NCBI GenBank assembly: GCA_016934575.1
Contig: JAFGSN010000136.1
Span: forward strand, 1 to 61,855
DNA: 61,855 bases
Direction of reading: 5' to 3'
Origin: Vicinamibacteria bacterium
GTDB taxonomy: Bacteria; Acidobacteriota; Vicinamibacteria; Fen-336
The notes under the pieces are model-generated. The model ran no database searches, was not told the DNA's origin, and was given only the letters and a program-made list of their open reading frames with translations. The position numbers and the translations under genes are program-made. Shown here piece by piece: positions 46,382-61,816 of this stretch. The number at the start of each line of letters is the position of its first letter. Position 1 is the first letter of the stretch.

Positions 46382-47080
46382 CTAGAACCCGAAAACGACG
46401 CCACCGCGGATGAAGAATGCTTCCAGTTTGATGTCGCCCAACGCGACCTCGCCGGGTATGAAATCGCCCAGGATGCCTGAAGCGGATACGGCGACCTCCG
46501 CTTTCTTGATCGGGAACATATAACCCAGCCCGACGTTAACGTGAATCGCCTGATCGAGGCCGACCTCCAGATCCCCCGCGACGACGGCCGAGACCATGTC
46601 GCCGATCTCGAACTCGACCGGCAGCGACACGTCCGCGCCGAGCGCCGAGTACGTCCAGTCGATGCTCGATTTGTTATAGACGTATCGCAGGCCGCCCTCG
46701 GCGACGAAACGGATGGGACTGTTTCCGACCTTCAAGAGCGCCGATCCGCCGACGGGAAGCGAGGTCAGCTTGCCCGCAGTCGACAGTCCCTCGATTCCCG
46801 GGATCTCGACAATCCGAAACTCGGTCGGCGTCCAGAAAAGAGCCCCGGCGGCCGCCGCGACGCCGAAATGCGCTCCCGGCCAGAACCGAAGCTGGATCTC
46901 GCCGCCGGCGATGTGGTCGAAGAACTCCTTGTCGAAGAGGTCTTTCGTCAGATCGTCGAGCTCGTCCTGATTGCTCGTTCCATACATTCCCATGATCTTT
47001 AAGTCTGCCGTCACGCCCGTATCCGTCAGCAAACCGGAGCACAAAAGCACGAGAGCAAGCACCAACCATCGTGATCGCAT
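46382..47080 (-). CDS. Predicted outer-membrane beta-barrel protein
   Basis: A 232-residue exported protein. The signal peptide is about 1-25 (MRSRWLVLALVLLCSGLLTD). The mature part is made of amphipathic strands (GEIQLRFWPGAHFGVAAAAG, IRFVAEGGLRYVYNKSS, AIHVNVGLGYMFPIKKAEV) and ends in Phe (FFIRGGVVFGF), as for barrels inserted by BamA. ATG 47080 has AGGAGA seven bases upstream, overlapping the TAG stop of the 62-residue gene. It closes the run that starts with the compatible-solute genes; being downstream of a mechanosensitive-channel-like gene, it may share osmotic regulation. Confidence 0.75.
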   Translation of the reverse strand: MRSRWLVLALVLLCSGLLTDTGVTADLKIMGMYGTSNQDELDDLTKDLFDKEFFDHIAGGEIQLRFWPGAHFGVAAAAGALFWTPTEFRIVEIPGIEGLSTAGKLTSLPVGGSALLKVGNSPIRFVAEGGLRYVYNKSSIDWTYSALGADVSLPVEFEIGDMVSAVVAGDLEVGLDQAIHVNVGLGYMFPIKKAEVAVSASGILGDFIPGEVALGDIKLEAFFIRGGVVFGF

Positions 47081-47091
47081 AGCCGTTTCTC

Positions 47092-47280
47092 CTATGGTCG
47101 ACAAATCTGTCCAAGCCGAATGGCGTCGATCTGGCCGACGCCGACGTCCTCGATCTTGCCGCCGGAAGCAATTCGCAGCGTGAGCGGTATGCGTGCCACC
47201 TTAAAGGTCATGATAATCGAAACGCGGCCATCAACGCACGCCGGCTCAGAGATGATGAAGGCCGTCTCCTTCGTCGTCAT
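47092..47280 (-). CDS. Small hypothetical protein between MscS-like and barrel genes
   Basis: A 62-residue frame, MTTKETAFIIS to IRLGQICRP, with alternating hydrophobic residues suggesting a small beta-rich fold (RVSIIMTFKVARIPLTLRIA). It overlaps the end of the MscS-like gene by 35 bases and ends 12 bases before the barrel gene, whose ribosome site contains its stop. Position and direction fit an operon member. No Shine-Dalgarno site precedes its ATG, and no family is recognised, so it may be an unused frame. Confidence 0.4.
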   Translation of the reverse strand: MTTKETAFIISEPACVDGRVSIIMTFKVARIPLTLRIASGGKIEDVGVGQIDAIRLGQICRP

Positions 47281-47956
47281 CCGAGGAGGGGTGCATCAGA
47301 CGCTCCAGAAGCTCGCGCGCGAGATCCCGCCCCGCCAGTCCGAACGCCAGCGCCAGCGCCAGCACGACGCCGCCGAACAGGATCGTGAACGATGTCAGGA
47401 TGACTTGCCGCCCCAGGCCAAGGTGTTCGAGCGCCATGGCGATGAAAAGCACCAGGAGCCCCGACTGCGCCACGGTCGCCAGAAGGCGCGCCGGCGCCAG
47501 GCCGGCGTTCACGGCCGCGATGAGCACGCTGCGACGCACGAAACCGGACACAAGCGTGCCGAGAACCAGAATGCCCAGGGCGATGAGGAGCTGCGGAAGA
47601 TAAGCGAACGCCTTCGAGAGGAGGTCCATCGCGATTCTGAGATCGAGCGCGCCTATCCCCAGCAGAAGAAATACTCCGAACACCGCCCAGGCGACGCTCA
47701 CGGCCACGACTCCCGAGGGCGTCCGGGTGATTCCCGCTTTGCCGAGGACCAGGCTCAGTCCGATGCGCTGAGCGAACCTGTCGAATCCCACACGCGGAAG
47801 CAGCAGCTTGAGCAGAAAACGAACGGTCATCGCGGCGAGCAGACCCACGGCGAGTATGACCATCATCGCCAGCAGGTTGGGTCCGAAGTCCGCCAGGCGT
47901 TCGCCGAACCCGCTCAGGGTTTTGCGAATGACTTCGGCCAGGATCTCTTGCCACAT
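47246..47956 (-). CDS. MscS-family-like TM-helix membrane protein
   Basis: A 236-residue integral membrane protein with the conserved TM-helix repeat of small-conductance mechanosensitive channel relatives: LLAMMVILAVGLLAAMTVRF then LLPRVGFDRFAQRIGLS in the first unit, and YLPQLLIALGILVLGTLVSG then VRRSVLIAAVNAG in the second. Four to five membrane helices are predicted. The C-terminal beta domain of full MscS channels is missing; the chain ends in an acidic tail (SSDDDEGDGLHHL). GAGGAGG lies six bases before the ATG. It lies 23 bases after the solute glycosyltransferase gene, fitting a role in turgor or osmotic stress. Confidence 0.82.
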   Translation of the reverse strand: MWQEILAEVIRKTLSGFGERLADFGPNLLAMMVILAVGLLAAMTVRFLLKLLLPRVGFDRFAQRIGLSLVLGKAGITRTPSGVVAVSVAWAVFGVFLLLGIGALDLRIAMDLLSKAFAYLPQLLIALGILVLGTLVSGFVRRSVLIAAVNAGLAPARLLATVAQSGLLVLFIAMALEHLGLGRQVILTSFTILFGGVVLALALAFGLAGRDLARELLERLMHPSSDDDEGDGLHHL

Positions 47957-47979
47957 TGGGCACCTCCTCGCGAGCGCGA

Positions 47980-49242
47980 CTACTTGAAGCGCTCGAGCAG
48001 AATCTTCCTCTGCGTGAAAAACTCGTTCGCCAGCTTGGCGATCGCGGCTTCGACCTGATCGGAGTCATAGTGCGCCGCTTCAAGCACAAATGAGGCCGTT
48101 CGGCCGAGATAGATCGGCACCAGGGAACGCAGAAGCTGTTCTTGCGTCAGGACGCGGTCATGGTACACGGAGGCGAACTCGTACACGACCCGAACCCACA
48201 GGGAATCGGGAAAGTGGAACGGCGCCGCCTCGATCGAAGCCAGAGCGCCGACGCCCGCAAGCGTTTCATCGCTCAGGACGCGGACCCAGACCTCGTGCAG
48301 ATCCCGCGACGCCTGGCGAAAGATACGGATCATCCGCTCCACGTTGACGGCGACCGGTTCGAGACCGACGCCGTGCGGAAAACCGAAGAGCGGAACGGGC
48401 GCGACGGTCTCGACCTTCTGCCAGCGACTCCGATAGGTCTGCATCAAATCGAAAACCGCGGAAACGACCTGAACGAACATCTGCGCCAGATCGGACCCCG
48501 GATCCTTGGCGTCGTGGATCTTGGCGCCGAGAAACGCCTGACAGACCTTGAAGTCGTCGGCCAGAGCCGTGGTCGTCATCCAGATGTCGATGCCGAAACG
48601 CGCGACGTTTGACTCCCAGACCGGCTGAGCGAGGTAATGCTTGGCCAGCGCTCCGGAAAAACCGAAATCGCCGCCGATCGGCTGGCGAACGTCCTTGCCG
48701 TAAAGTGCGCGCGTCACGGGATAGACGATCGAGTTGGTGATCGTGCCGTCGTACTTGTGCCGCAGATAAAGCGGAGCCACGAAATCGAAGCCCTGATGAA
48801 GCACCGGACCGAGAAGCAGCTCGATCCAGCCGGGCGTGATGCTGCGCAGATCCGCGTCGACGACGACGCAGGCCTTGGCCGACAGACGATCGGCGATCGC
48901 GAAGATCGTCCGGAAAGCGCTGCCCTTTCCCGGAACGCCATGGTAGGGCGTGACGATCTTCTGAACGGCGTTCAGCGGATGAGAGACGAGAATGGCGCCC
49001 GGACTGGTGAAGTCCGACGCGGCCACGACGTCGGGCGATCCGTCCTTCGATCCGCCGTCGGAGTTGACGATGACGGCGCGCTGCAGCGGGAAATGTTTGG
49101 CGAGACCGGCCGCGGCGGCCCGGACGACATGACCAATCGTGCGCGCGTTGTTATAACTGGGAATGCCGACCAACAGATCGACCTCGCCCAGCTCGCGCAG
49201 GCGCGCTTCGACCTCCGACGACAGCACGACATCGCGACTCAC
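47980..49242 (-). CDS. Family 2 glycosyltransferase of a glucosylglycerate-type solute pathway
   Basis: A 420-residue GT-A enzyme. The nucleotide-sugar fold starts VDLLVGIPSYNNARTIGHVV, the metal motif is VVVDADLRSITPGW (DAD), and the acceptor region includes QPIGGDFGFSGALAKHYL. Its gene overlaps that of the HAD phosphatase by GTGA, so it acts in the same pathway. In Petrotoga and Persephonella, a second transferase adds mannose or glucose to glucosylglycerate to make mannosylglucosylglycerate or glucosylglucosylglycerate; this enzyme is a good candidate for such a step. The sugar added is not readable from the sequence. It could instead act on an envelope glycan. Confidence 0.8.
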   Translation of the reverse strand: MSRDVVLSSEVEARLRELGEVDLLVGIPSYNNARTIGHVVRAAAAGLAKHFPLQRAVIVNSDGGSKDGSPDVVAASDFTSPGAILVSHPLNAVQKIVTPYHGVPGKGSAFRTIFAIADRLSAKACVVVDADLRSITPGWIELLLGPVLHQGFDFVAPLYLRHKYDGTITNSIVYPVTRALYGKDVRQPIGGDFGFSGALAKHYLAQPVWESNVARFGIDIWMTTTALADDFKVCQAFLGAKIHDAKDPGSDLAQMFVQVVSAVFDLMQTYRSRWQKVETVAPVPLFGFPHGVGLEPVAVNVERMIRIFRQASRDLHEVWVRVLSDETLAGVGALASIEAAPFHFPDSLWVRVVYEFASVYHDRVLTQEQLLRSLVPIYLGRTASFVLEAAHYDSDQVEAAIAKLANEFFTQRKILLERFK

Positions 49243-50096
49243 TCTCTGTCGCCTCCTTTCGTTGCTTCTCCGGCGCGCGGCAAGCGTTCGCCGTCGAGAA
49301 CGGCGACCATCGCACGATTCCAGCCCGCCGGCCCGGGCAACGGCGCGATCTCGGCGTACGGCAGAGCCTCGCGCAACTCGGGATCCGGCGCGCCCGAAGG
49401 ACGCGGCACGACAATCGGCCGATCGGCCGCCTGCAACATCGACAGATCGTTGGCGGAATCGCCCAGCGCGACCACCGTGAAGAACCGGCCCGCCGCGCGA
49501 TAGATCGCGAGCAGCTCGACGAGCGCCCGCCCCTTGTCCGTCGGTCCAGTGAGATGATGAAACCGCCCGCCGCGCGTCACGCGCAGACCGCGCCGCTCGG
49601 CGGCGCGGCGCAAGGCCTCGACATCGGCGTCCGCGGGCGCCAGGAAAGGCTCGTCGTACTCGCGACGCTGGGCCTTCATCGCCTGCGACGCCGACAATCC
49701 GGTCAGATCCTGGATCTCCTGGAGCGACATCACGGTCATGCCCTTGAGCATCAGGCCGCACTCGCCGCCGATCTCGTTCAGCGCCGACGCGAGTCGCGCA
49801 TGCTCCGCTCCGAGGACGACGCTGACGGCGTTTCCGTTTCGTCGCGCATCGGCGCGCGATACGGCGACATGCCCTTCAGGCATCACGATCGCGCCGCCGT
49901 TCTCCACCACGAACGGCGCGCGGGTGTCCAGCTCCCCGACGATCGGCTCGATCTCGGCTCTGGTCTTGGAGCTGGAAAGCACGAGAATCGCGCCCTCCTG
50001 CTTGAGACGCGCGAGCGCGCCGCGGGCCTCGTCGTATCGGTAGCCGGTCGCGTCCAGAAGACAGGCGTCGAGATCCGTTGCGACAAGCAGGCTCAC
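49239..50096 (-). CDS. HAD-family glucosyl/mannosyl-3-phosphoglycerate phosphatase
   Basis: Removes phosphate from glucosyl- (or mannosyl-) 3-phosphoglycerate to give the neutral solute. The HAD motifs are motif I ATDLDACLLD (two Asp), motif II VLSSSKTRAEIEP, motif III GPTDKGRALVE and motif IV VALGDSANDLSML. A C2b-type cap (about 90-190) is present. At 285 residues it fits the MPGP/YedP family. The GTG start overlaps the stop of the GpgS-like synthase as GTGA, which strongly ties the two steps together. The sugar specificity is not decided by the sequence; the neighbour suggests glucose. Confidence 0.9.
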   Translation of the reverse strand: MSLLVATDLDACLLDATGYRYDEARGALARLKQEGAILVLSSSKTRAEIEPIVGELDTRAPFVVENGGAIVMPEGHVAVSRADARRNGNAVSVVLGAEHARLASALNEIGGECGLMLKGMTVMSLQEIQDLTGLSASQAMKAQRREYDEPFLAPADADVEALRRAAERRGLRVTRGGRFHHLTGPTDKGRALVELLAIYRAAGRFFTVVALGDSANDLSMLQAADRPIVVPRPSGAPDPELREALPYAEIAPLPGPAGWNRAMVAVLDGERLPRAGEATKGGDRE

Positions 50097-51301
50097 CTTT
50101 CACCAAGCGAGACGGCGTCGAGAAGACGCGCGGCCGCATCGGGAAAACCCGACCAGACACGAGCCCAGTTGGGAACGAGAGGCGCCCCCAGGGGATCGGC
50201 CAAGAACTCCTCGACCGAGGCGCGCAGCGCCTTCGTAAAGGTGTGGACGATCTGCTCCTCCTCATGACGATCATACTGCAGACCGTTGAGCACCGAGACG
50301 CAATAGCTGTCGGCGACGGCGTCCTCGGCCTCGCGCTGATAAGCCGCGAGCACGCTCCACAGTACGCCCTCGGACAGCACGACGCCGGCCGCCGCCAGCG
50401 TGCGCAGGAGATGCTTGACGACGTCGCGCGACATGCGGTGCAAGCCTTGTCGCGGATCGCCGGACGAAAGACTCCGATGCTTGTGCTCATATGATTCGCA
50501 CAGCTCCACCTGGCAAATACGGTAGGCGGCCCTGTGGCGAAGCGCCTCGAATAGGCTGACGATCTCAAGCCCCCAGTCGGACGGCAGACGCATGCGCATG
50601 GCCAGATCGGTCTGCACGGCGACCTCTCCGGAAAGGACGTAGCGGAAAGAAGACAGATAACGCAAGTATGGATGCTCTCCGATAAGACGCGTCAGGGCGG
50701 CCAGAAGCGGCGTGAGCATGAGGCGCGTGAGACGGCCGTGCAACTGATCGGTGACCCGCGCGTAATAACCCTTGACGAAGTCGAAATCCACGGTCGGATC
50801 CACGGCCGGAAGCACAAGACGCGCCAGCATCTCTCGCTTGTAGCTCACGACGTCTCCATCGTGAAAAGCGATGTACTCGGCGCGTCCCTCGGCGATGATA
50901 TAACCCATCGCGAGCCAGCAGGCGCGCCCCTTGCCGGGCTCGCCGATGTTGAGGCCCGCGCGTTCGAAATCGTTCAGCAGCCTCTCGATCGACGGCGACT
51001 CGTTCCACAGAACGATCACTCGACCTGTGTAACGCGCGAAAAACTGCTGCGTGCGCGAGAAGTCTTCGGCGCTGGCGCGGTTGAGCGAGACAAGAAGCGT
51101 GTCGATATAACGCACTCGAGTCAACTCGTCGAGTATGCCCGAAAGCGCCGGCCGATCCATTTCGTCCGGAAGGATCGGGATCACAAGCGCGATCGGAAAG
51201 CGAGGCGTGAAGCGCTCGATAATGCGCTCAAGCTCCTCCACGGGACGAGCGAGCAATCGTGGCAGCGCCGTGACGGGTCCGCTTTGGTGAAAATCACTCA
51301 T
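50093..51301 (-). CDS. gpgS: Glucosyl-3-phosphoglycerate synthase-like glycosyltransferase (GT81)
   Basis: A 402-residue glycosyltransferase that would join a sugar from a nucleotide donor to 3-phosphoglycerate. The GT-A metal motif is IAFHDGDVVSYKREMLARL, followed by the GpgS-like stretch FDFVKGYYARVTDQLHGRLT and LTPLLAALTRLIG. The signature YLRYLSSFRYVLSGEVA and the downstream GLEIVSLFEALRH complete the active region. ATG 51301 (MSDFHQSG) is the likely start; the frame is open a little further upstream and no strong ribosome site is seen. It is the first gene of the solute operon, with the phosphatase following by GTGA overlap. The donor sugar, glucose or mannose, is inferred. Confidence 0.83.
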   Translation of the reverse strand: MSDFHQSGPVTALPRLLARPVEELERIIERFTPRFPIALVIPILPDEMDRPALSGILDELTRVRYIDTLLVSLNRASAEDFSRTQQFFARYTGRVIVLWNESPSIERLLNDFERAGLNIGEPGKGRACWLAMGYIIAEGRAEYIAFHDGDVVSYKREMLARLVLPAVDPTVDFDFVKGYYARVTDQLHGRLTRLMLTPLLAALTRLIGEHPYLRYLSSFRYVLSGEVAVQTDLAMRMRLPSDWGLEIVSLFEALRHRAAYRICQVELCESYEHKHRSLSSGDPRQGLHRMSRDVVKHLLRTLAAAGVVLSEGVLWSVLAAYQREAEDAVADSYCVSVLNGLQYDRHEEEQIVHTFTKALRASVEEFLADPLGAPLVPNWARVWSGFPDAAARLLDAVSLGER

Positions 51302-52850: not shown

Positions 52851-54686
52851 TCACCCGATCGCGACGCGTTGCGGCGGCAGACAGCGCTCTTCAAGCGTCA
52901 GCCAGATTCGTTCCAAACGTATCCGCTGCTCTTTGATTGCCTCAATCAGCGAGGCGAGATTCTCGCCCGGAAAAGCGGTCTCCTTGCAGTAGCGATCGTA
53001 ATAAGCCAGCCCCCGTCGCAAATTTTCATAGTACTTCCGAAGATATGCCTCCGCCTTCTCGTCGCCGCAGGAATGATTACTGGCGATCTTTTCGAAGTGG
53101 TCGACATACATCGTGAGATCCTTGACGAACATGTGCGGCCGATGCTCCGGCACGAGAGAGGCGCAGCGACCGTAAATATGGTCCACGAGCTCTCTTAACG
53201 AGCACTCTCGATTGAACCAGGCCATGTTCGGACCGGGGCATATGGCCACCGGCAAATCGTCATGTGTCTCTCCCAATGCGATCAGCGCGCCATTGCCGAG
53301 CTGATCGCAGAGGCAGGTCTTGACGTAAATCGCCTGCACGGCCGGATCCTTGCAGTCCGCCGATGGCGTCCGCTTGTAGCCCAGCATCGCCAGCTTGGAC
53401 GCGATGTACTCGCGAGAGACGGTGCAAACGGGATTTGCCGTGCACTCCGTGTTCGTGGCCAGGTAACGCTTGGGACAAGACGAACCGGGCCGACCCTGCC
53501 TGATTCTCTCCAGCGTCCAACGCTCCGCGGACGAGTCGCGCAGATTGTTGAAGGGCACTCCCAGCGGCGAAGCGTCGCTCAGGTAAAGAGCGTCTTCTCC
53601 AGCTCGCATGAGCTTGTGCCGTGTGGCGTCATCCAGAGCGGTTGCTTCCGGAACGAGGAGAAATGGGCTGGCCCAGCCGACGCCGTCCAGATCGTACGCC
53701 TCCGTCAGGCGCCGCATCTCGCCGTGCGTGCCCACGCCGCCTTGAGCCGTGACGAGTATGCGTCGCCCGCGCCCGGAGACGTGATATTCACGGCCTTTCT
53801 TCTGATAGTGCTGGATGATGAGGGGCTCGAATAGCGCCGCCATCTCTTCGCGGCGATCCTTGAACTCCTGCAGTATAGGGCCCATCAGGTGTCCGTTCGA
53901 AGCGAATGCATGCCCGCCGCAGTTGAGGCCCGATTCGACGCGGAACTCGCGTGTTTCAATGCCTTTTTTCGCCAGAAACTTCCCCTGTATGAGGCTCGAT
54001 CGAAAATCCGAGACTTTGAGGATGACGCCCTTGCTCAAACGGCCTTCGCTGTCTCGGTAGAACTCAGGGAAGCTCTCCATATAACCAAAGAGCGTCGGAT
54101 TGATGCCCGCGGAGAGCACGATGCAATTGCCTCCTTGCGATCGCGCGAATCCGCGTAGCGCTGATTTCGCGTCGGAAAACTCGGCAGGCAACGGATTGCC
54201 CTTGGAATCGCACGGGAGCCGATCCACCTTGGTCATGATGTTGCAGTCGATGGATCCCGGCCGCATGGCTTCCGTCAACTCGCGCTCCAGGTCGTCCTTG
54301 ACCGATCCGTCTGGCAAGTCGACGTACGACTTGTATGTCTTCTTGAGCGACGACTCGTCGGGCAGCATCTCGAAATATCGGCTCTTCTCGTTGGCTTCCC
54401 GGAGAGGCAGCGCTCTGATCTCCCGCATCTGCCGTTTCACGATGATCTGCACCAGATCAAGGTAGGCTGTGATGCGCGCCGCGCGCGGATCATCATGCGC
54501 TGCGGTGATCGGATCGTAAGGGATATCGTAGATTCGGCTGTAGTGTCGTCGTACACGCTCGATGAGCATGTCGTCCACCAGGGAGATCACGGAGGAGATT
54601 CCGAAGCGCGCCACTCGGATAGGCGTGTCGACCGTGAAGCCCGTGCCCATGACCGGAATGTGAAAGCTATGAAGGGATGGCTGCAT
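52851..54686 (-). CDS. FMN-dependent TIM-barrel protein (nitronate-monooxygenase/PfaD-like), large
   Basis: A 611-residue protein. The core pattern fits the 2-nitropropane-dioxygenase/nitronate monooxygenase fold: FGISSVISLVDDMLIERVRR near the N-terminus, ESGLNCGGHAFASNGHLMGP mid-chain, and the phosphate-binding end ILVTAQGGVGTHGEMRRL with VGWASPFLLVPEATALDD, parallel to the GG and G-x-F-L elements of that family. A C-terminal domain (about 390-611) with many Cys (CPKRYLATNTECTANPVC, KTCLCDQLG) is extra and could bind metal. Related enzymes include the enoyl reductase PfaD of PUFA synthesis. No ribosome site precedes the ATG. Activity is not established. Confidence 0.6.
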   Translation of the reverse strand: MQPSLHSFHIPVMGTGFTVDTPIRVARFGISSVISLVDDMLIERVRRHYSRIYDIPYDPITAAHDDPRAARITAYLDLVQIIVKRQMREIRALPLREANEKSRYFEMLPDESSLKKTYKSYVDLPDGSVKDDLERELTEAMRPGSIDCNIMTKVDRLPCDSKGNPLPAEFSDAKSALRGFARSQGGNCIVLSAGINPTLFGYMESFPEFYRDSEGRLSKGVILKVSDFRSSLIQGKFLAKKGIETREFRVESGLNCGGHAFASNGHLMGPILQEFKDRREEMAALFEPLIIQHYQKKGREYHVSGRGRRILVTAQGGVGTHGEMRRLTEAYDLDGVGWASPFLLVPEATALDDATRHKLMRAGEDALYLSDASPLGVPFNNLRDSSAERWTLERIRQGRPGSSCPKRYLATNTECTANPVCTVSREYIASKLAMLGYKRTPSADCKDPAVQAIYVKTCLCDQLGNGALIALGETHDDLPVAICPGPNMAWFNRECSLRELVDHIYGRCASLVPEHRPHMFVKDLTMYVDHFEKIASNHSCGDEKAEAYLRKYYENLRRGLAYYDRYCKETAFPGENLASLIEAIKEQRIRLERIWLTLEERCLPPQRVAIG

Positions 54687-55024: not shown

Positions 55025-55669
55025 TGGCTGCCGCTCGTCCAGGCCTCGATGCGCCTGCTCGTCAACGAGCTGCGTTCCCAGGATCGCGTCGCCGTCGTCG
55101 TTTACGCTGGCGCCGAAGGCCTGGCGCTGCCTTCGACGAGCGCCGGCGAGAAGGAACAAATCCTCAAAGTCATCGAGAGCCTTGGCGCGGGCGACGCGAC
55201 TCACGGCAGCGCGGGTCTCAAGCTTGCCTACGATATTGCCGAACAAGGCTTCATCAAGGACGACGTCAATCGCGTTATCCTCGCCACTGACGGGGACTTC
55301 AACGTGGGCGTCGCCAGTCGGGGCGACCTGATCCGCCTCATCGAGGACAAGGCAAAGACCGGAGTCTCCCTGACGGCGCTCGGCTTTGGCATGGGTAACA
55401 TCAAGGACTCGACGCTAGAAAAGCTGGCCGACCACGGCAACGGCAACTACGCGTACATAGACAGCCTGTGGGAGGCGCGCAAGGCGCTCGTCGAGCAGAT
55501 CGACGCCACGCTCGTGACGATCGCCAAGGACGTCAAGCTCCAGATCGAGCCGGGGCGCGGCATTCTCGATATGCCGCGCCCCTTTTGCTGGCGACCGCGA
55601 CGAAAGTCGACGTTGATCCGTCAAATACGCCAGTTTGACCAGGAACCACCGGCAAGAAATGCGGTCTAA
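55025..55669 (+). pseudogene. Truncated YfbK-like von Willebrand factor A protein
   Basis: The frame starts inside a VWA domain. WLPLVQASMRLLVNELRSQD matches the helix that follows the metal-binding DxSxS motif, which is itself missing, as are the signal peptide and N-terminal domain. The rest of the domain is intact (VILATDGDFNVGVASRGDL, LTALGFGMGNIKDSTLEKLA, NGNYAYIDSLWEAR). After DVKLQIE similarity stops, exactly where a terminator hairpin begins, and the frame runs on for about 40 unrelated residues. The gene is therefore cut at both ends and, without the MIDAS motif, cannot bind metal normally. A short ATG-started product from 55049 is possible but likely inactive. Confidence 0.75.
55552..55586 (+). 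terminator. Strong rho-independent terminator inside the VWA remnant
   Basis: A perfect 12-base-pair stem: GGGGCGCGGCAT (55552-55563) and ATGCCGCGCCCC (55571-55582), with a seven-base loop TCTCGAT and then TTTT. It begins at the point where the VWA reading frame loses similarity, so it probably was the terminator of a longer gene and was brought next to the truncated part by a deletion. It insulates the alpha-2-macroglobulin gene downstream. Confidence 0.8.
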
Positions 55670-55741
55670 TATGACGAGATGCCGTAATATGGATCGATAT
55701 CAAGGTTCGAATGGTCTTCCATGCATCAGCAGGAGGGGCTC

Positions 55742-58700
55742 GTGAAGCGCAAGTTGGTCGTGTCAGCAGTCGCTGTCGTCTCCGTGGTGGGATTGGCGTT
55801 TGCCGTTGCTCCGCGCGGATCGCGTGGTAAGCCCGGCGTGCGCGGAGCCAGGGATAAATCGATACAAGGCAAAGAAGAGCAGACAGGGCTTGCTTTCCGC
55901 CTGAGCGAGGGCGCCGAGGAGCAACCGCCCTACGCCCGCCCTCCGGTAGTGAAAGGCGAGCCGCTTTCCGCCGCCGAAACCGAGGCGCTGCTCGCGCGCT
56001 TGCCGGCCCTGAAAACGGACGAGAAGGATCGGGCGGAATTCGCTCTCCGCGAGTCCTCGCTTCCGGCGCCGCGCACGGGCGCGACTGTTCAATCGCCCTT
56101 CCCTCCCCCCGACAGCGCCGAGGCTCCGGACAAGACGCCAGCGGGGCCGCTCGATGTGCTGCGTCGTCTTCCCGAAGGCGACGTTCCTCTTGCGCCGCAC
56201 CTGTCCGTAACGTTTTCGCAGCCCATGGTCGCCGTGACGTCGCATGCCGAGTTGGCCCGTGAGGAAGTTCCAGTGCGCCTGACGCCGCAGCCTGAGGGCG
56301 AATGGCGCTGGGTGGGCTCCAAAACACTCGTGTTTCAGCCCAGCCCGCGCCTGGCGATGGCGACCGACTACACGGTCGAGATTCCGGCCGGGACGCGTTC
56401 AGCGACGGGCGGCGCGCTCGCCAAGGCCGTGCGCTGGACGTTCTCAACTCCGCCTCCGACGCTCGATGCCAAATACCCCTGGAACCAACCGGCGCGTCAT
56501 CAGCCGGTGCTCTTCGCGTCCTTTGATCAAAGGATCGATCCCAAGGCGGTCGCGGCGACGATTCAGCTCATTGCGAACGGAAAAAAGTTTGGCGCACGCC
56601 TCGCCACTGACGAGGAGATCCAGGGCGACGCCGACGTTCAACGTCTGACGTCCGGCGCCGAGCAGGGCCGATGGCTTGCTTTCAAACCCGAGAGGCCGTT
56701 GCCGCCGGATTCGAACGTGCGCGTCATCATCGGTCCCGGCACGTCCTCGGACGAGGGGCCGCGGCGAACGGCCAAGGCGCAAGAGTGGGGCTTTCGAACC
56801 TACGGGCCGCTCAAAGTCGTCAATCACCGCTGCGGCTGGCGCAAGAAGGACTGCCGGCCGCTTGTACCATGGCAGATCGAGTTCTCTAATCCGCTCGATG
56901 CGCGGGGCTTCCAGAAAAGCATGATCAGCGTGACGCCCGATCTTCCGGACTTCGTCGCCGAGGTTTTCGGCAACACACTGAACGTCCGTGGACGATCGAA
57001 GGGGCGCACGACGTACACCGTAACGCTCGATGCGACGATCACGGACGTTTTCGAACAGACACTCGGTCGCGATGAGACCGTCAGCTTCGTCGTCGGGCCG
57101 GCCGAACCCGCGCTCATCGGGCCAGGACGAGACTTCATTGTTCTCGATCCAGCCGCGCCGCCGCGCTTCTCGGTCTTCACGATCAACCAACCCTGGGTCC
57201 GGGCGCGTGCGTACGCGGTGACGCCCGAGGACTGGGGCAAGTGCCGTGAGTTCATGCAGGCATTTCACCGGAACATCGAATCGGCCAAGCCGCCCGGTCG
57301 TCTCGTTATCGACGAGCGCGTGCGCGTGCGCGGCGCCGACGACGAGCTGACCGAAACGCCGATCGATCTCACGAGTGCGTTCGAACAGGGATCGGGGAAC
57401 GTTCTTCTGGTCGTCGCGCCCGCCGTACAGCCCAAGGAGGAGTGGCGCCGCCTCAGGATCGCGGCATGGATCCAGGCCACGACGATCGGTCTCGACGTCT
57501 TTGCCGATCAAGACGACCTCATCGTCTGGGCGACGTCGCTTCAGGACGGACGGCCGCTTGAAGGCGTCGAGATCGATCTGCTTCCGTCAGGTTCAGGGTC
57601 ACGGACGAAGAGCGACGGCATGCTTGCGGTTCCCATTCCCGACAAGACCGTCGAAGCCGTCGTGGCTCGTCGCGGGGAAGAGCGGGCGTTCCTGCCACAA
57701 CACGCCTCTCTCTGGGGCGGCGGCGGCTGGCGCCGACAAAGCATGATCGACACACTGCGCTGGTACGTCTTCGACGACCGAAAAATGTACCGTCCCGGCG
57801 AAGAGGTGAGGATCAAGGGCTGGCTCCGCATCATCGGAATGAGCCCGAAGGGCGACGTCGAAGCGCTGACTGGGATCGCGGGCAAGGTCGCGTATCAGCT
57901 TCACGACTCGCGCGGGAACGAAGTCCTGAAAGGCGACGCGGACGTCACAGGTTTCGGAGCGTTCACGCTTTCCTTCAAGCTTCCGCAGACGATGAACCTC
58001 GGTCATGCGCGCGTTGTCTTAAACGCCGCCGTGCCCGTGGCCGGCGGCCTGCGACACACGCACACGTTCGAGGTCCAGGAGTTCAGAAGGCCCGAATACG
58101 AGGTGAAGGCGAACGCCAGCGAAGGGCCGCACATGATCGGCGGCCACGCGATCGCGACCGTGAGCGCCGACTATTACGCGGGCGGGGCTCTGCCAAACGC
58201 CGAGGTGACGTGGCGCGTTGAGGCCCGGCCTGGGTCGTATACGCCGCCCAACCGGAGCGATTTCACTTTCGGCGCCTGGACGCCATGGTGGGAGTCGCAT
58301 GAGGAATCCGGCGACGTGCGCGTCGAAAACTTCAGCGCGCGCACCGACTCCTCCGGCAAACACCATCTCCGCATCGATTTCGACGGGGTTCGGCCGCCGC
58401 GTCCCAGCCACGTGAAAGCCGAGGCCACGGTCATGGACGTCAATCGCCAGGCATGGACCGCGAACGCCGCGATGCTCGTCCATCCATCCGGACTCTGCAT
58501 CGGCCTGCGCAGTGAGCGGCTCTTCGTCGAGCGCGGCCAGCCGCTCAGGATCGAGGCGATCGTCACCGATCTCGACGGAGTCGCGGCGCCTGGGCGCGAG
58601 ATCGCGCTCACCGCCGAGCGCCTGCGCGGCGTCTGGAGCCTGGAAGGCTGGAAAGAGGAGATCGCCGACACTCAAGAACAGACCCTGACGTCGGGCAAGG

Positions 58701-61700
58701 ATCCGGTCCGTTGCGAGTTCAGTGCAAAGGAGGGCGGCGTCTATCGCGTCACGGCCACGGTGCGGGACGACGAGGGCCGTCCGAACGAAAGCCGGCTCCG
58801 CCTGTGGGTCGCGGGCGAGAGGCAGACGCCGCGTCGCGACGTCGAGCGCGAGAAGGTGACTTTGGTGCCGGACAAGAAGGAGTACAAGTCGGGCGAGACG
58901 GCCGAAGTGCTCGTCATCGCGCCTTTCTCGCCGGCCGAGGCGCTCATGACGCTCGCTCGTTCGGGCATCCTGCGCACGGAACGCTTCACGATCAAGGAAG
59001 GAACACACACGCTGAAGATTCGCGTCGAGGAGAGCTTCACCCCAAACGTCTGGTTGCAGGTCGATCTTGTCGGCGCTGCGCCGCGCACGGACGATGCGGG
59101 CGAGATCGACTCCAGGCTTGCGAAGCGGCCGGCCTTTGCCGGCGGATCGATCCGCATCGACGTCCCGCCGTATGAAAGGAAGCTGGCGCTCGATGTTCAA
59201 CCGCGCGATAAAGCGCTCGATCCGGGCGGCGAGACCACGATCGATGTGAGCGTGCGCGACGCCGCCGGCAATCCCATGGCCGGAGGTGAAGCAGTGATCG
59301 TCGTTGTCGACGAGTCCGTGCTCGCGCTCACGGGTTATCGATTGCCGGACCCGATCGACGTGTTCTATGCGCGCAGGTCGCAAGACGTTCATGCGCGTTA
59401 CTTGCGGGAGCATGTGCGCCTTGCGCAACCGGACTTGACTGCCGCAACCACGGTGAATGGAATGCTTTCGGAGTCGGAGTCAGAGTCGTCGGATTTCGCT
59501 ATGAGCTTCGGGCGGCCCGGCATGGCGGCCGCCGCGCCGGCTCCGGCGGTCATGTCACGGCAAATGCTCAAGGGCAAAATAGACAAAATAGAAGAGAAGC
59601 GAATGAACGGACCCAAAGCGGCGCCTGAATCAATTCGCATGCGCACCGACATGCGCGCTCTGGCGCTCTTCGCCGCAAGCGTCGTCACGAACGCCAATGG
59701 AAAGGCGTCCGTTCCCCTCAAGCTCCCTGACAGCCTGACACGTTATCGCATCATGGTCGTGGCCACGGACGGCGTCAAGCGCTTCGGCCAGGGCGAAGCC
59801 ACGATCACGGCGCGGCTGCCGCTCATGACGCGTCCCTCGCCGCCGCGCTTCCTGAACTTCGGCGATACGGCCGAGGTGCCGATCGTTCTCCAGAATCAAA
59901 CCAATGAGCGGATGGACGCGCGCGTGGCGATGCGCGCGGCGAACGCGACGCTCACCGGAGCGAAGGGCTATCGCGTGATTGTTCCGGCAAACGATCGCGT
60001 CGAAGTGCGCTTCCCCGTGACGACCGTGAGCGCCGGGAAGGCCCGGTTCCAGGTCGCGGCGTCCGTTGGTCGCTTCGCCGACGCGGCCTCGTTCGAGCTG
60101 CCCGTGTGGACGCCGGCCACGACCGAGGCGTTTGCGACTTACGGCCAGATCGACAAGGGCGCGATTGTGCAGCCCGTCAAAGCGCCGAGCGGCGTGGCGC
60201 GCCAGTTCGGCGGGCTCGAAATCACGACCTCATCGACCGCGCTGCAGGCCCTCACCGACACCGTGATTTACCTGACGAGCTATCCGTTCGAGTGCACGGA
60301 GCAGATGGCCTCGCGCATTCTGGGCATCGCCGTGTTACGTGACGTTCTCACGGCATTCAAGGCCGAAGGTTTGCCTTCGCCCGAAGCGCTCATCGATTCG
60401 GTCAAGCGCGACGTCACTCTGCTGTCACAGCTCCAAAACGACGACGGCGGCTTCGCCTTCTGGCGTCGCGGCGACTGCTCGTGGCCGTACATCAGCATCC
60501 ATGTCGCCAACGCCTTTGCGCGCGCAAAGGAGAAAGGCTTCGACGTTCCGCAGAAGGCCATGGATCGTTCGCGCGATCATCTGCGTGAGATCGAGCGGCA
60601 CATCCCTTCATGGTATAGCACCGAAGCCCGGCGCATGCTCATTGCGTATGCGCTGAACGTGCGTCAGAGGATGGGCGATCGCGACGTCGATCGCGCGCGC
60701 CGGCTGTTCCACGAGGCCGGAATCGACGGATTGACCTTCGAGGCGCTGGGTTTCGTCCTGCCCGTGCTTTCGGGAGATTCGCGATCGACCGCCGAGGTCG
60801 CGGCGATCCGCAAGCATCTCGCCAATCGCGTCACTGAGACGGCCGGCGCGGCGCATTTCGTCGTGGCGTACGGAGACAGCGCCTATCTGCTGCTGCACTC
60901 CGACCGTCGCGCGGACGCGATCCTGCTCGAGGCCCTGATCGCGGACCAGCCGCAAAACGATCTCATCCCGAAGATCGTCGAGGGTTTACTCGCGCACCGC
61001 AAGGCCGGACGCTGGCTCAACACCCAGGAGAACGTCTTCGTCTTGCTGGCGCTGGATCGATACTTCAACACGTACGAAAAGGTCACGCCCGACTTCGTCG
61101 CGCGCATGTGGCTTGGAAAACAGTACGCGGGCGAGCACGCTTTTCACGGGCGCACAACCGATCGCAAGCACGTCGCCATTCCGATGTCGCTTCTGGCCGA
61201 GAATCCGGGAACCCAGGACTTGATTCTAGCGAAAGACGGACCTGGGCGCCTCTACTATCGTATCGGCATGCGCTATGCGCCGGAGAGTCTCTCGCTCGAT
61301 CCAATGGACCGCGGTTTCGTCGTCGAGCGACGCTATCAGGCGGTCGACGACAAGACCGACGTGACCCGCGACGAAGACGGCACGTGGCGCGTCAAGGCCG
61401 GCGCGCGCGTGCGCGTCCAGCTCACGATGGTCTCGCCGGCGCGACGCTATCACGTCGCGCTCGTGGATCCGCTCCCTGCCGGGCTCGAGGCGCTCAACCC
61501 CGAGCTGAAGACGACGGGCACGATTCCTCAGGGAGAGAACGAAACCGTCGCCGTGATGGGCGCGCCCGGCCTGGGCGGTCCGGGTCTGCGCGGCTCGTGG
61601 TGGTGGTGGCGCCGTACGTGGTGGGAGCACCAGAACATGCGCGACGAGCGCGCCGAGGCTTTCGCCTCGCTCCTGTGGGAAGGCGTGTGGAACTACAGCT

Positions 61701-61816
61701 ACGTGGCGCGCGCCACGACGCCGGGCCGCTTCGTCGTACCGCCGCCCAAGGCCGAGGAGATGTACCACCCGGAGACCTTCGGCCGCGGAGGAACGGACCG
61801 CGTCGTCGTGGAGTGA
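55742..61816 (+). CDS. Bacterial alpha-2-macroglobulin (YfaS-like large form)
   Basis: A 2,024-residue envelope protease trap. An N-terminal hydrophobic segment (VVSAVAVVSVVGLAFAVAP) is a signal peptide or anchor; no lipobox Cys is present, unlike lipoprotein-type YfaS. A series of macroglobulin domains (about 100-1150) is followed by a Ser/Ala/Met-rich bait-like segment (SESESESSDFAMSFGRP, about 1245-1305). The thioester site C1518-TEQ is intact in YPFECTEQMASRILG, then an alpha-helical thioester domain and a C-terminal receptor-like domain. GTG 55742 follows AGGAGG by five bases. No penicillin-binding protein 1C gene is beside it in the window, though that pairing is common. Confidence 0.95.
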   Translation: MKRKLVVSAVAVVSVVGLAFAVAPRGSRGKPGVRGARDKSIQGKEEQTGLAFRLSEGAEEQPPYARPPVVKGEPLSAAETEALLARLPALKTDEKDRAEFALRESSLPAPRTGATVQSPFPPPDSAEAPDKTPAGPLDVLRRLPEGDVPLAPHLSVTFSQPMVAVTSHAELAREEVPVRLTPQPEGEWRWVGSKTLVFQPSPRLAMATDYTVEIPAGTRSATGGALAKAVRWTFSTPPPTLDAKYPWNQPARHQPVLFASFDQRIDPKAVAATIQLIANGKKFGARLATDEEIQGDADVQRLTSGAEQGRWLAFKPERPLPPDSNVRVIIGPGTSSDEGPRRTAKAQEWGFRTYGPLKVVNHRCGWRKKDCRPLVPWQIEFSNPLDARGFQKSMISVTPDLPDFVAEVFGNTLNVRGRSKGRTTYTVTLDATITDVFEQTLGRDETVSFVVGPAEPALIGPGRDFIVLDPAAPPRFSVFTINQPWVRARAYAVTPEDWGKCREFMQAFHRNIESAKPPGRLVIDERVRVRGADDELTETPIDLTSAFEQGSGNVLLVVAPAVQPKEEWRRLRIAAWIQATTIGLDVFADQDDLIVWATSLQDGRPLEGVEIDLLPSGSGSRTKSDGMLAVPIPDKTVEAVVARRGEERAFLPQHASLWGGGGWRRQSMIDTLRWYVFDDRKMYRPGEEVRIKGWLRIIGMSPKGDVEALTGIAGKVAYQLHDSRGNEVLKGDADVTGFGAFTLSFKLPQTMNLGHARVVLNAAVPVAGGLRHTHTFEVQEFRRPEYEVKANASEGPHMIGGHAIATVSADYYAGGALPNAEVTWRVEARPGSYTPPNRSDFTFGAWTPWWESHEESGDVRVENFSARTDSSGKHHLRIDFDGVRPPRPSHVKAEATVMDVNRQAWTANAAMLVHPSGLCIGLRSERLFVERGQPLRIEAIVTDLDGVAAPGREIALTAERLRGVWSLEGWKEEIADTQEQTLTSGKDPVRCEFSAKEGGVYRVTATVRDDEGRPNESRLRLWVAGERQTPRRDVEREKVTLVPDKKEYKSGETAEVLVIAPFSPAEALMTLARSGILRTERFTIKEGTHTLKIRVEESFTPNVWLQVDLVGAAPRTDDAGEIDSRLAKRPAFAGGSIRIDVPPYERKLALDVQPRDKALDPGGETTIDVSVRDAAGNPMAGGEAVIVVVDESVLALTGYRLPDPIDVFYARRSQDVHARYLREHVRLAQPDLTAATTVNGMLSESESESSDFAMSFGRPGMAAAAPAPAVMSRQMLKGKIDKIEEKRMNGPKAAPESIRMRTDMRALALFAASVVTNANGKASVPLKLPDSLTRYRIMVVATDGVKRFGQGEATITARLPLMTRPSPPRFLNFGDTAEVPIVLQNQTNERMDARVAMRAANATLTGAKGYRVIVPANDRVEVRFPVTTVSAGKARFQVAASVGRFADAASFELPVWTPATTEAFATYGQIDKGAIVQPVKAPSGVARQFGGLEITTSSTALQALTDTVIYLTSYPFECTEQMASRILGIAVLRDVLTAFKAEGLPSPEALIDSVKRDVTLLSQLQNDDGGFAFWRRGDCSWPYISIHVANAFARAKEKGFDVPQKAMDRSRDHLREIERHIPSWYSTEARRMLIAYALNVRQRMGDRDVDRARRLFHEAGIDGLTFEALGFVLPVLSGDSRSTAEVAAIRKHLANRVTETAGAAHFVVAYGDSAYLLLHSDRRADAILLEALIADQPQNDLIPKIVEGLLAHRKAGRWLNTQENVFVLLALDRYFNTYEKVTPDFVARMWLGKQYAGEHAFHGRTTDRKHVAIPMSLLAENPGTQDLILAKDGPGRLYYRIGMRYAPESLSLDPMDRGFVVERRYQAVDDKTDVTRDEDGTWRVKAGARVRVQLTMVSPARRYHVALVDPLPAGLEALNPELKTTGTIPQGENETVAVMGAPGLGGPGLRGSWWWWRRTWWEHQNMRDERAEAFASLLWEGVWNYSYVARATTPGRFVVPPPKAEEMYHPETFGRGGTDRVVVE

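Follow-up and report, generated by a model that had tools for sequence, protein, structure and literature searches.

A stretch of 61,855 nucleotides from a Vicinamibacteria bacterium of the phylum Acidobacteriota (contig JAFGSN010000136.1, referred to here in its full length as the window) carries four consecutive genes on its reverse strand. They encode a glycosyltransferase resembling glucosyl-3-phosphoglycerate synthase (GpgS), a HAD phosphatase, a second GT-A glycosyltransferase (GTB) and a membrane protein (TM). We consider it rather probable that these genes constitute a single operon that makes an anionic sugar-glycerate compatible solute, in which GpgS and a glucosyl-3-phosphoglycerate phosphatase (GpgP) act in succession, GTB adds a second hexose and TM serves as the membrane partner. 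The gene order and the overlaps, the conservation of the cassette, the pairing of GTB with TM, the association of GTB with GpgS and the loss of the GTB active site in 20 genomes without GpgS were all directly observed, and GTB and TM constitute a tight, previously undescribed gene pair across many bacterial phyla. The core interpretation as compatible-solute genes, already put forward in a first-pass annotation of this DNA, is probably right; new here are the GTB-TM pair and a catalytically dead form of GTB, which are worth following.

GTGA overlaps connect the first gene to the second and the second to the third, and TM begins with an ATG 23 nt after the stop codon of GTB; these overlaps and this distance, given in the first-pass annotation, are exact. 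An AGGAGG motif stands ahead of both the GTG start of GTB and the ATG start of TM, and the start codon of the GpgS-like gene is backed by an invariant M1 and D3 in 16 homologues. Each of the four genes has homologues that match it in length, and a member of a different genus within the family (locus L022) shows the order GpgS-HAD-GTB-TM again, with identities of 71, 50, 72 and 61%, respectively; therefore, we regard all four as real genes. Promoter and terminator scans of the region returned no more signals than shuffled sequence, so they do not define the ends of the operon. A downstream barrel protein had also been counted in the unit. However, its open reading frame lies outside the range 47080-51301 given for that unit and the linkage is not conserved, as tblastn searches of 140 locus pieces found no match to it; it was discarded as an operon member. 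The source genome is 98% complete.

The GpgS-like protein aligned with the GpgS_Meth family NF040724 over 379 residues (308.8 bits, E 5e-92) and scored 27.9 against the Pfam family MGS_GT, the cut-off of which is 27. The motifs GKG, DxD, GR[VL]T, GE, WGLE and HKH are kept in 16 homologues, and both the alignment and the PDB-profile alignments place a glutamate at the position of GpgS Glu232. Thus, the catalytic and 3-phosphoglycerate motif set of GpgS (GKG, DxD, GRxT, GE loop, E and H) is present. The phosphatase, in which the DxD motif DLD stands close to the N-terminus of the translation, belongs to the mannosyl-3-phosphoglycerate phosphatase (MPGP) family TIGR01486 (217.7 bits over residues 4-263, cut-off 164.75), while it remains below the cut-offs of the MPGP equivalogs TIGR02461 (184.9, cut-off 244.35) and NF001216 (199.1, cut-off 353). 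Among solved structures, those nearest to it carry the name mannosyl-3-phosphoglycerate phosphatase (3ztw, E 1e-30). A GpgS-like synthase and an MPGP-family phosphatase encoded by overlapping genes recall the GpgS/GpgP pathway of Methanococcoides, Persephonella and cyanobacteria. In contrast to that pathway, the operon described here includes an additional glycosyltransferase and a membrane protein, and its GpgS falls under the curated GpgS_Meth cut-off. Variants of this region were seen in other loci. In L058 (3762-5975) the HAD phosphatase is fused to a MOFRL glycerate kinase directly upstream of GTB, as verified by domain content; L065, L068, L076, L091, L096 and L102 have similar long HAD reading frames, and the length and matches of these suggest the same fusion. 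A protein of approximately 386 amino acids lies between HAD and GTB in L046 (4807-5967), L077 (4822-5985) and L090 (4806-5969); the L046 copy matched neither a Pfam nor an NCBIfam family and in sequence resembles a third glycosyltransferase.

The experimental record of glucosylglycerate-type solutes comes from few organisms. At least 578 relatives of GTB were found among species-representative genomes, and the best 80 of these belong to Acidobacteriota, Nitrospirota, deltaproteobacterial groups, Gallionellales, Sulfuricella, Zixibacteria, KSB1, Aminicenantes and others. Those 80 are mostly environmental metagenome-assembled genomes and, judged by their record titles, show no sign of thermophily. 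A search of a plasmid collection for named relatives of GTB returned one distant match, from Halorussus. The earlier view that such gene sets are documented in only a few organisms, mainly thermophiles, could not be maintained for the genes in the face of these numbers; mannosylglucosylglycerate (MGG), in addition, has been reported from the mesophile Rhodopirellula baltica (PMC3694870). The cassette extends a glucosylglycerate-type pathway, together with a second transferase, to numerous uncultured bacteria of the environment in several phyla.

The link between GTB and GpgS was assessed in 297 Acidobacteriota genomes. GpgS was present in 44 of the 47 with a strong GTB match (E <= 1e-85, a cut picked after the matches had been seen) versus 8 of the 250 others, three of these eight carrying a more distant GTB (Fisher 1.3e-40, a value that is only indicative). 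When GpgS is not beside GTB it is usually elsewhere in the genome (32 of 37 genomes).

A PDB sequence search with GTB alone found no match; a GTB profile reached GpgS and mannosylglycerate synthase (MGS). The predicted model of GTB (predicted local distance difference test score, pLDDT, 87.6) had its best fold match in MGS over the full length. The Foldseek template-modelling score normalized to the target (TMt) was 0.71-0.75 over 411-419 columns, with E values of 8e-16 to 2e-15 for the top four matches, and that for GpgS was lower (TMt approximately 0.6). As modeled, GTB belongs to the MGS fold family (GT78/GT81-like), which combines a GT-A domain with an MGS-like C-terminal helical domain; Pfam detected a distant GT2-type similarity. 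The catalytic residues described for GpgS and MgS, which comprise a Lys, the DxD, a Thr with a role toward the carboxylate, an Asp/Glu and a His (PMC2581804), have their aligned counterparts in K106, D129, D131, T169, D219 and H243 of GTB. The GTIT of GTB takes the place of GR[VL]T in the GpgS enzymes and of AMIT in MGS, indicating that the Thr for the glycerate carboxylate is shared and the Arg of GpgS, which would contact the phosphate, is not. The I-T motif and R161 align with Ile138-Thr139 and an Arg of MGS, and D219 aligns with MGS Asp192. Besides the full-length fold and the catalytic K, DxD, T, D and H positions, GTB shares the PGKG and DAD..S..P.W motifs with the MGS of Rhodothermus marinus (GT78; 2bo4, 2y4k). 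However, identity is only 16-18%, the genomic context differs and MGS is a single-step enzyme acting on D-glycerate.

GTBs were divided into type I, with at least 50% identity to that of the window, and type II, with 40-50%. All six catalytic residues were conserved throughout 92 type I GTBs, apart from an H at position 129 in one sequence, and throughout 25 type II GTBs. Loss of these residues was found in family f17 of Acidobacteriota (loci L040 and L143-L158), where a GTB-like protein adjoins TM in all 17 genomes and the trehalose synthase TreS is on the same piece in 13 of them. The f17 proteins have intact reading frames, yet nearly all carry other residues at the positions equivalent to K106, D129, T169, D219 and H243. 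In three loci from the same class as the window (L039, L159 and L160), also beside TreS, the active site is partly eroded. None of these 20 genomes (17 of f17 plus three) is in the list of GpgS-positive genomes. The difference in GpgS presence between strong and eroded GTBs gave a Fisher value of 3e-14, to be read knowing that the genomes are related and that f17 may represent a single event. The rule is not absolute, since a few genomes without detected GpgS (e.g., G140 and L161) have intact, more distant GTBs. Compared with the type I consensus, f17 proteins share 11% identity in the N-terminal part, 26% in the middle of the catalytic core and 56% in the C-terminal helical domain, versus 50, 69 and 46% for type II proteins without TM. 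Conservation of the core thus tracks GpgS, and conservation of the C-terminal domain tracks TM. The natural reading of these sequence comparisons is that catalysis by GTB would need the product of GpgS, and the C-terminal domain may serve TM. That f17 proteins have lost the active site and yet retain both the C-terminal domain and TM suggests that GTB and TM could form a membrane-coupled complex. Several Acidobacteriota genomes (G083, G264, G102 and G093) have two GTB matches, both strong in G083 and G102, and those of G083 are one type I and one type II. These pairs may perform two successive sugar transfers.

The pairing of GTB with TM was analyzed in 120 loci, which are not fully independent because at least two genomes were entered twice. 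A TM gene no more than 600 nt downstream was seen for 87 of the 92 type I GTBs versus 1 of the 23 of type II, and the median gap over all linked loci was 12 nt. Among the 80 best loci, in which several gene orders occur, TM was present in 79, GpgS within approximately 6 kb in 43 and HAD in 35. The proposal that this is an MscS-like protein held in part. TM is related to MscS, as it matches the conserved transmembrane helix family PF05552 in two stretches (53.1 bits, cut-off 22), but the Pfam scan detected no MscS beta domain (PF00924), and membership in the MscS channel family was rejected on that ground; its score against NF033912 was 65.9 bits (cut-off 100). In an alignment of 39 TM homologues, nearly all carry a conserved acidic C-terminal tail that finishes with His and then Leu, Ile or another hydrophobic residue; the TM of the window ends in HL. 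A precedent for a regulatory protein with an MscS relationship is Pseudomonas CmpX, which reportedly acts as a regulator of the sensor kinase PA1611 (PMC10965496). Unlike CmpX and other MscS-family proteins, TM lacks PF00924, and its partner is a glycosyltransferase rather than sigX.

Clustering of the open reading frames in the neighborhoods was noisy, with long shadow reading frames in GC-rich DNA, and directed tblastn tallies were used instead; they count matches to one example per family, and GalU was assigned by sequence rather than by a family scan. Glycerate kinases were found in 22 of 80 loci (20 of the MOFRL type, of which one examined example, from a Gallionellales genome, is fused to the HAD, and 2 of the GlxK type), trehalose genes (TreY, TreZ, TreT, OtsAB, TreS) in 26, the ADP-glucose pyrophosphorylase GlgC or GalU in 11 and true MscS channels in 7. 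The genome that includes the window also encodes a MOFRL glycerate kinase. Among the recurrent neighbor clusters inspected, no mannose-nucleotide gene was recognized and no envelope-polymer genes recurred. These neighbors fit a metabolism of glycerate-based osmolytes and trehalose and suggest a glucosyl donor; they favor glucose rather than mannose as the second sugar.

Taken with the GpgS motifs, the phosphatase score above the MPGP cut-off and the co-occurrence of GTB and GpgS, such osmolyte-related neighbors support what the first-pass annotation had proposed, glucosylglycerate-type synthesis followed by addition of a second sugar. In the pathway we envision, the GpgS-like enzyme, by its family and motifs, would convert nucleoside diphosphate glucose and 3-phosphoglycerate to glucosyl-3-phosphoglycerate, and the HAD phosphatase, by its family, would dephosphorylate it to glucosylglycerate. 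The co-occurrence of GTB with GpgS and the maintenance of its active site with GpgS, and erosion without it, point to GTB as the enzyme that extends the GpgS product by a second hexose, a role to which the fold also lends itself. Its acceptor would most likely be glucosylglycerate and the sugar most likely glucose, resulting in a di-glucosyl glycerate. In the last and weakest step TM might bind GTB through the C-terminal helical domain and link the activity or location of this enzyme to the membrane, with membrane tension as a plausible signal, and solute release by TM is conceivable. An extended version of this step, which we advance as possible but doubtful, is that GTB and TM make up a membrane-embedded osmosensing complex. 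An MscS-type transmembrane core without vestibule would grip the C-terminal helices of the glycosyltransferase and switch solute synthesis with membrane tension. In the Acidobacteriota family f17 the glycosyltransferase would be a dead signaling subunit next to trehalose synthase, the same sensor now serving a different osmolyte. The GTB/MscS-like TM pair, retained past the loss of the active site, is a testable candidate for coupling between membrane state and osmolyte synthesis.

Several points weigh against a four-gene pathway of this kind. The GpgS-like protein is homologous to the members of NF040724, but its 308.8 bits are below the curated equivalog cut-off of 700. The Acidobacteriota genomes compared are related, and the Fisher value for the association of GTB and GpgS overstates their independence. 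Five of the 37 genomes with a split cassette have no GpgS, although they may be incomplete. The TM model had no significant match among solved structures in the PDB, only a 91-column stretch of MscS (probability 0.90, E 3.5). In addition, the I-T carboxylate motif is known for direct acceptors of both kinds, glycerate and 3-phosphoglycerate, so a GTB that uses glycerate fits equally. Such an enzyme would be a Ggs-type glucosylglycerate synthase that acts on free D-glycerate and offers a parallel route to the same solute, as reportedly occurs in Persephonella marina. The closest fold of GTB is that of a D-glycerate user, MGS, the alignment of the I-T motif and R161 with MGS agrees with this function, glycerate kinases are frequent neighbors, and the genome of the window encodes one. 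However, GTB is almost confined to GpgS-bearing genomes, and 20 genomes without GpgS have a GTB with an eroded active site. Since an enzyme independent of GpgS should not track it, we consider the D-glycerate route quite unlikely.

Another explanation that preserves the role of GpgS is that GTB transfers mannose from GDP-mannose in an MggS/MggA-like reaction, producing MGG as in Petrotoga and Rhodopirellula. By description, the MGG pathway shares with the operon a GpgS step, a second sugar transfer and a phosphatase; the enzymes of Petrotoga mobilis are reportedly MggA, MggB and MggS, and we know of no membrane protein paired with them. The best fold match of GTB is a mannosyltransferase, D219 aligns with Asp192 of that enzyme and MGG is present in a mesophile (PMC3694870). 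Nevertheless, the recurrent neighbors GlgC and GalU supply glucose nucleotides, with no mannose-nucleotide gene recognized in the clusters inspected, and, as far as the descriptions of the pathway allow a comparison, we consider transfer of mannose unlikely. It is also conceivable that the acceptor of GTB lies in the membrane or at the cell surface, that TM anchors the enzyme in the membrane and that GTB is only co-regulated with osmolyte genes. The very tight pairing of GTB with a membrane protein and the distant GT2-type similarity would be accounted for in this manner. On the other hand, conservation of the active site tracks GpgS, the fold is that of a glycerate/phosphoglycerate enzyme and the inspected neighbors included no recurrent envelope-polymer genes, and a surface acceptor is accordingly very improbable. 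Addition of a second hexose to the GpgS product remains the reading that we prefer, and the features are listed in Table 1 on that basis.

Table 1. Coordinates in the window of the predicted operon, its gene overlaps and the adjacent barrel reading frame.
Feature	Coordinates	Strand	Description
GpgS-like glycosyltransferase (GTA)	50093..51301	-	402 aa; predicted glucosyl-3-phosphoglycerate synthase
HAD-IIB phosphatase	49239..50096	-	285 aa; predicted glucosyl-3-phosphoglycerate phosphatase (MPGP/GpgP family)
GTB, second GT-A glycosyltransferase, retaining by fold	47980..49242	-	420 aa; predicted second-hexose transfer to GpgS product
GTB C-terminal all-helical domain (residues 301-418)	47989..48342	-	DSSP on model; candidate TM contact surface
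TM, membrane protein	47246..47956	-	236 aa; MscS-type conserved transmembrane helices, no MscS beta domain
GTGA overlap, GpgS stop / HAD start	50093..50096	-	
GTGA overlap, HAD stop / GTB start	49239..49242	-	
Barrel open reading frame	46382-47080 (47080-46382)	-	165 nt past TM stop

Elsewhere in the window, a reverse-strand gene (52851-54686) encodes a protein of 611 amino acids for which neither Pfam nor NCBIfam gave a match; its neighbor is a FabH-like 3-oxoacyl-acyl carrier protein synthase (52616-51537). The forward strand at 55721-61816 encodes a protein of 2031 amino acids with a CTEQ thioester-type motif, which we take to be alpha-2-macroglobulin-like, and the reading frame before it (55049-55669) is presumably VWA-like.

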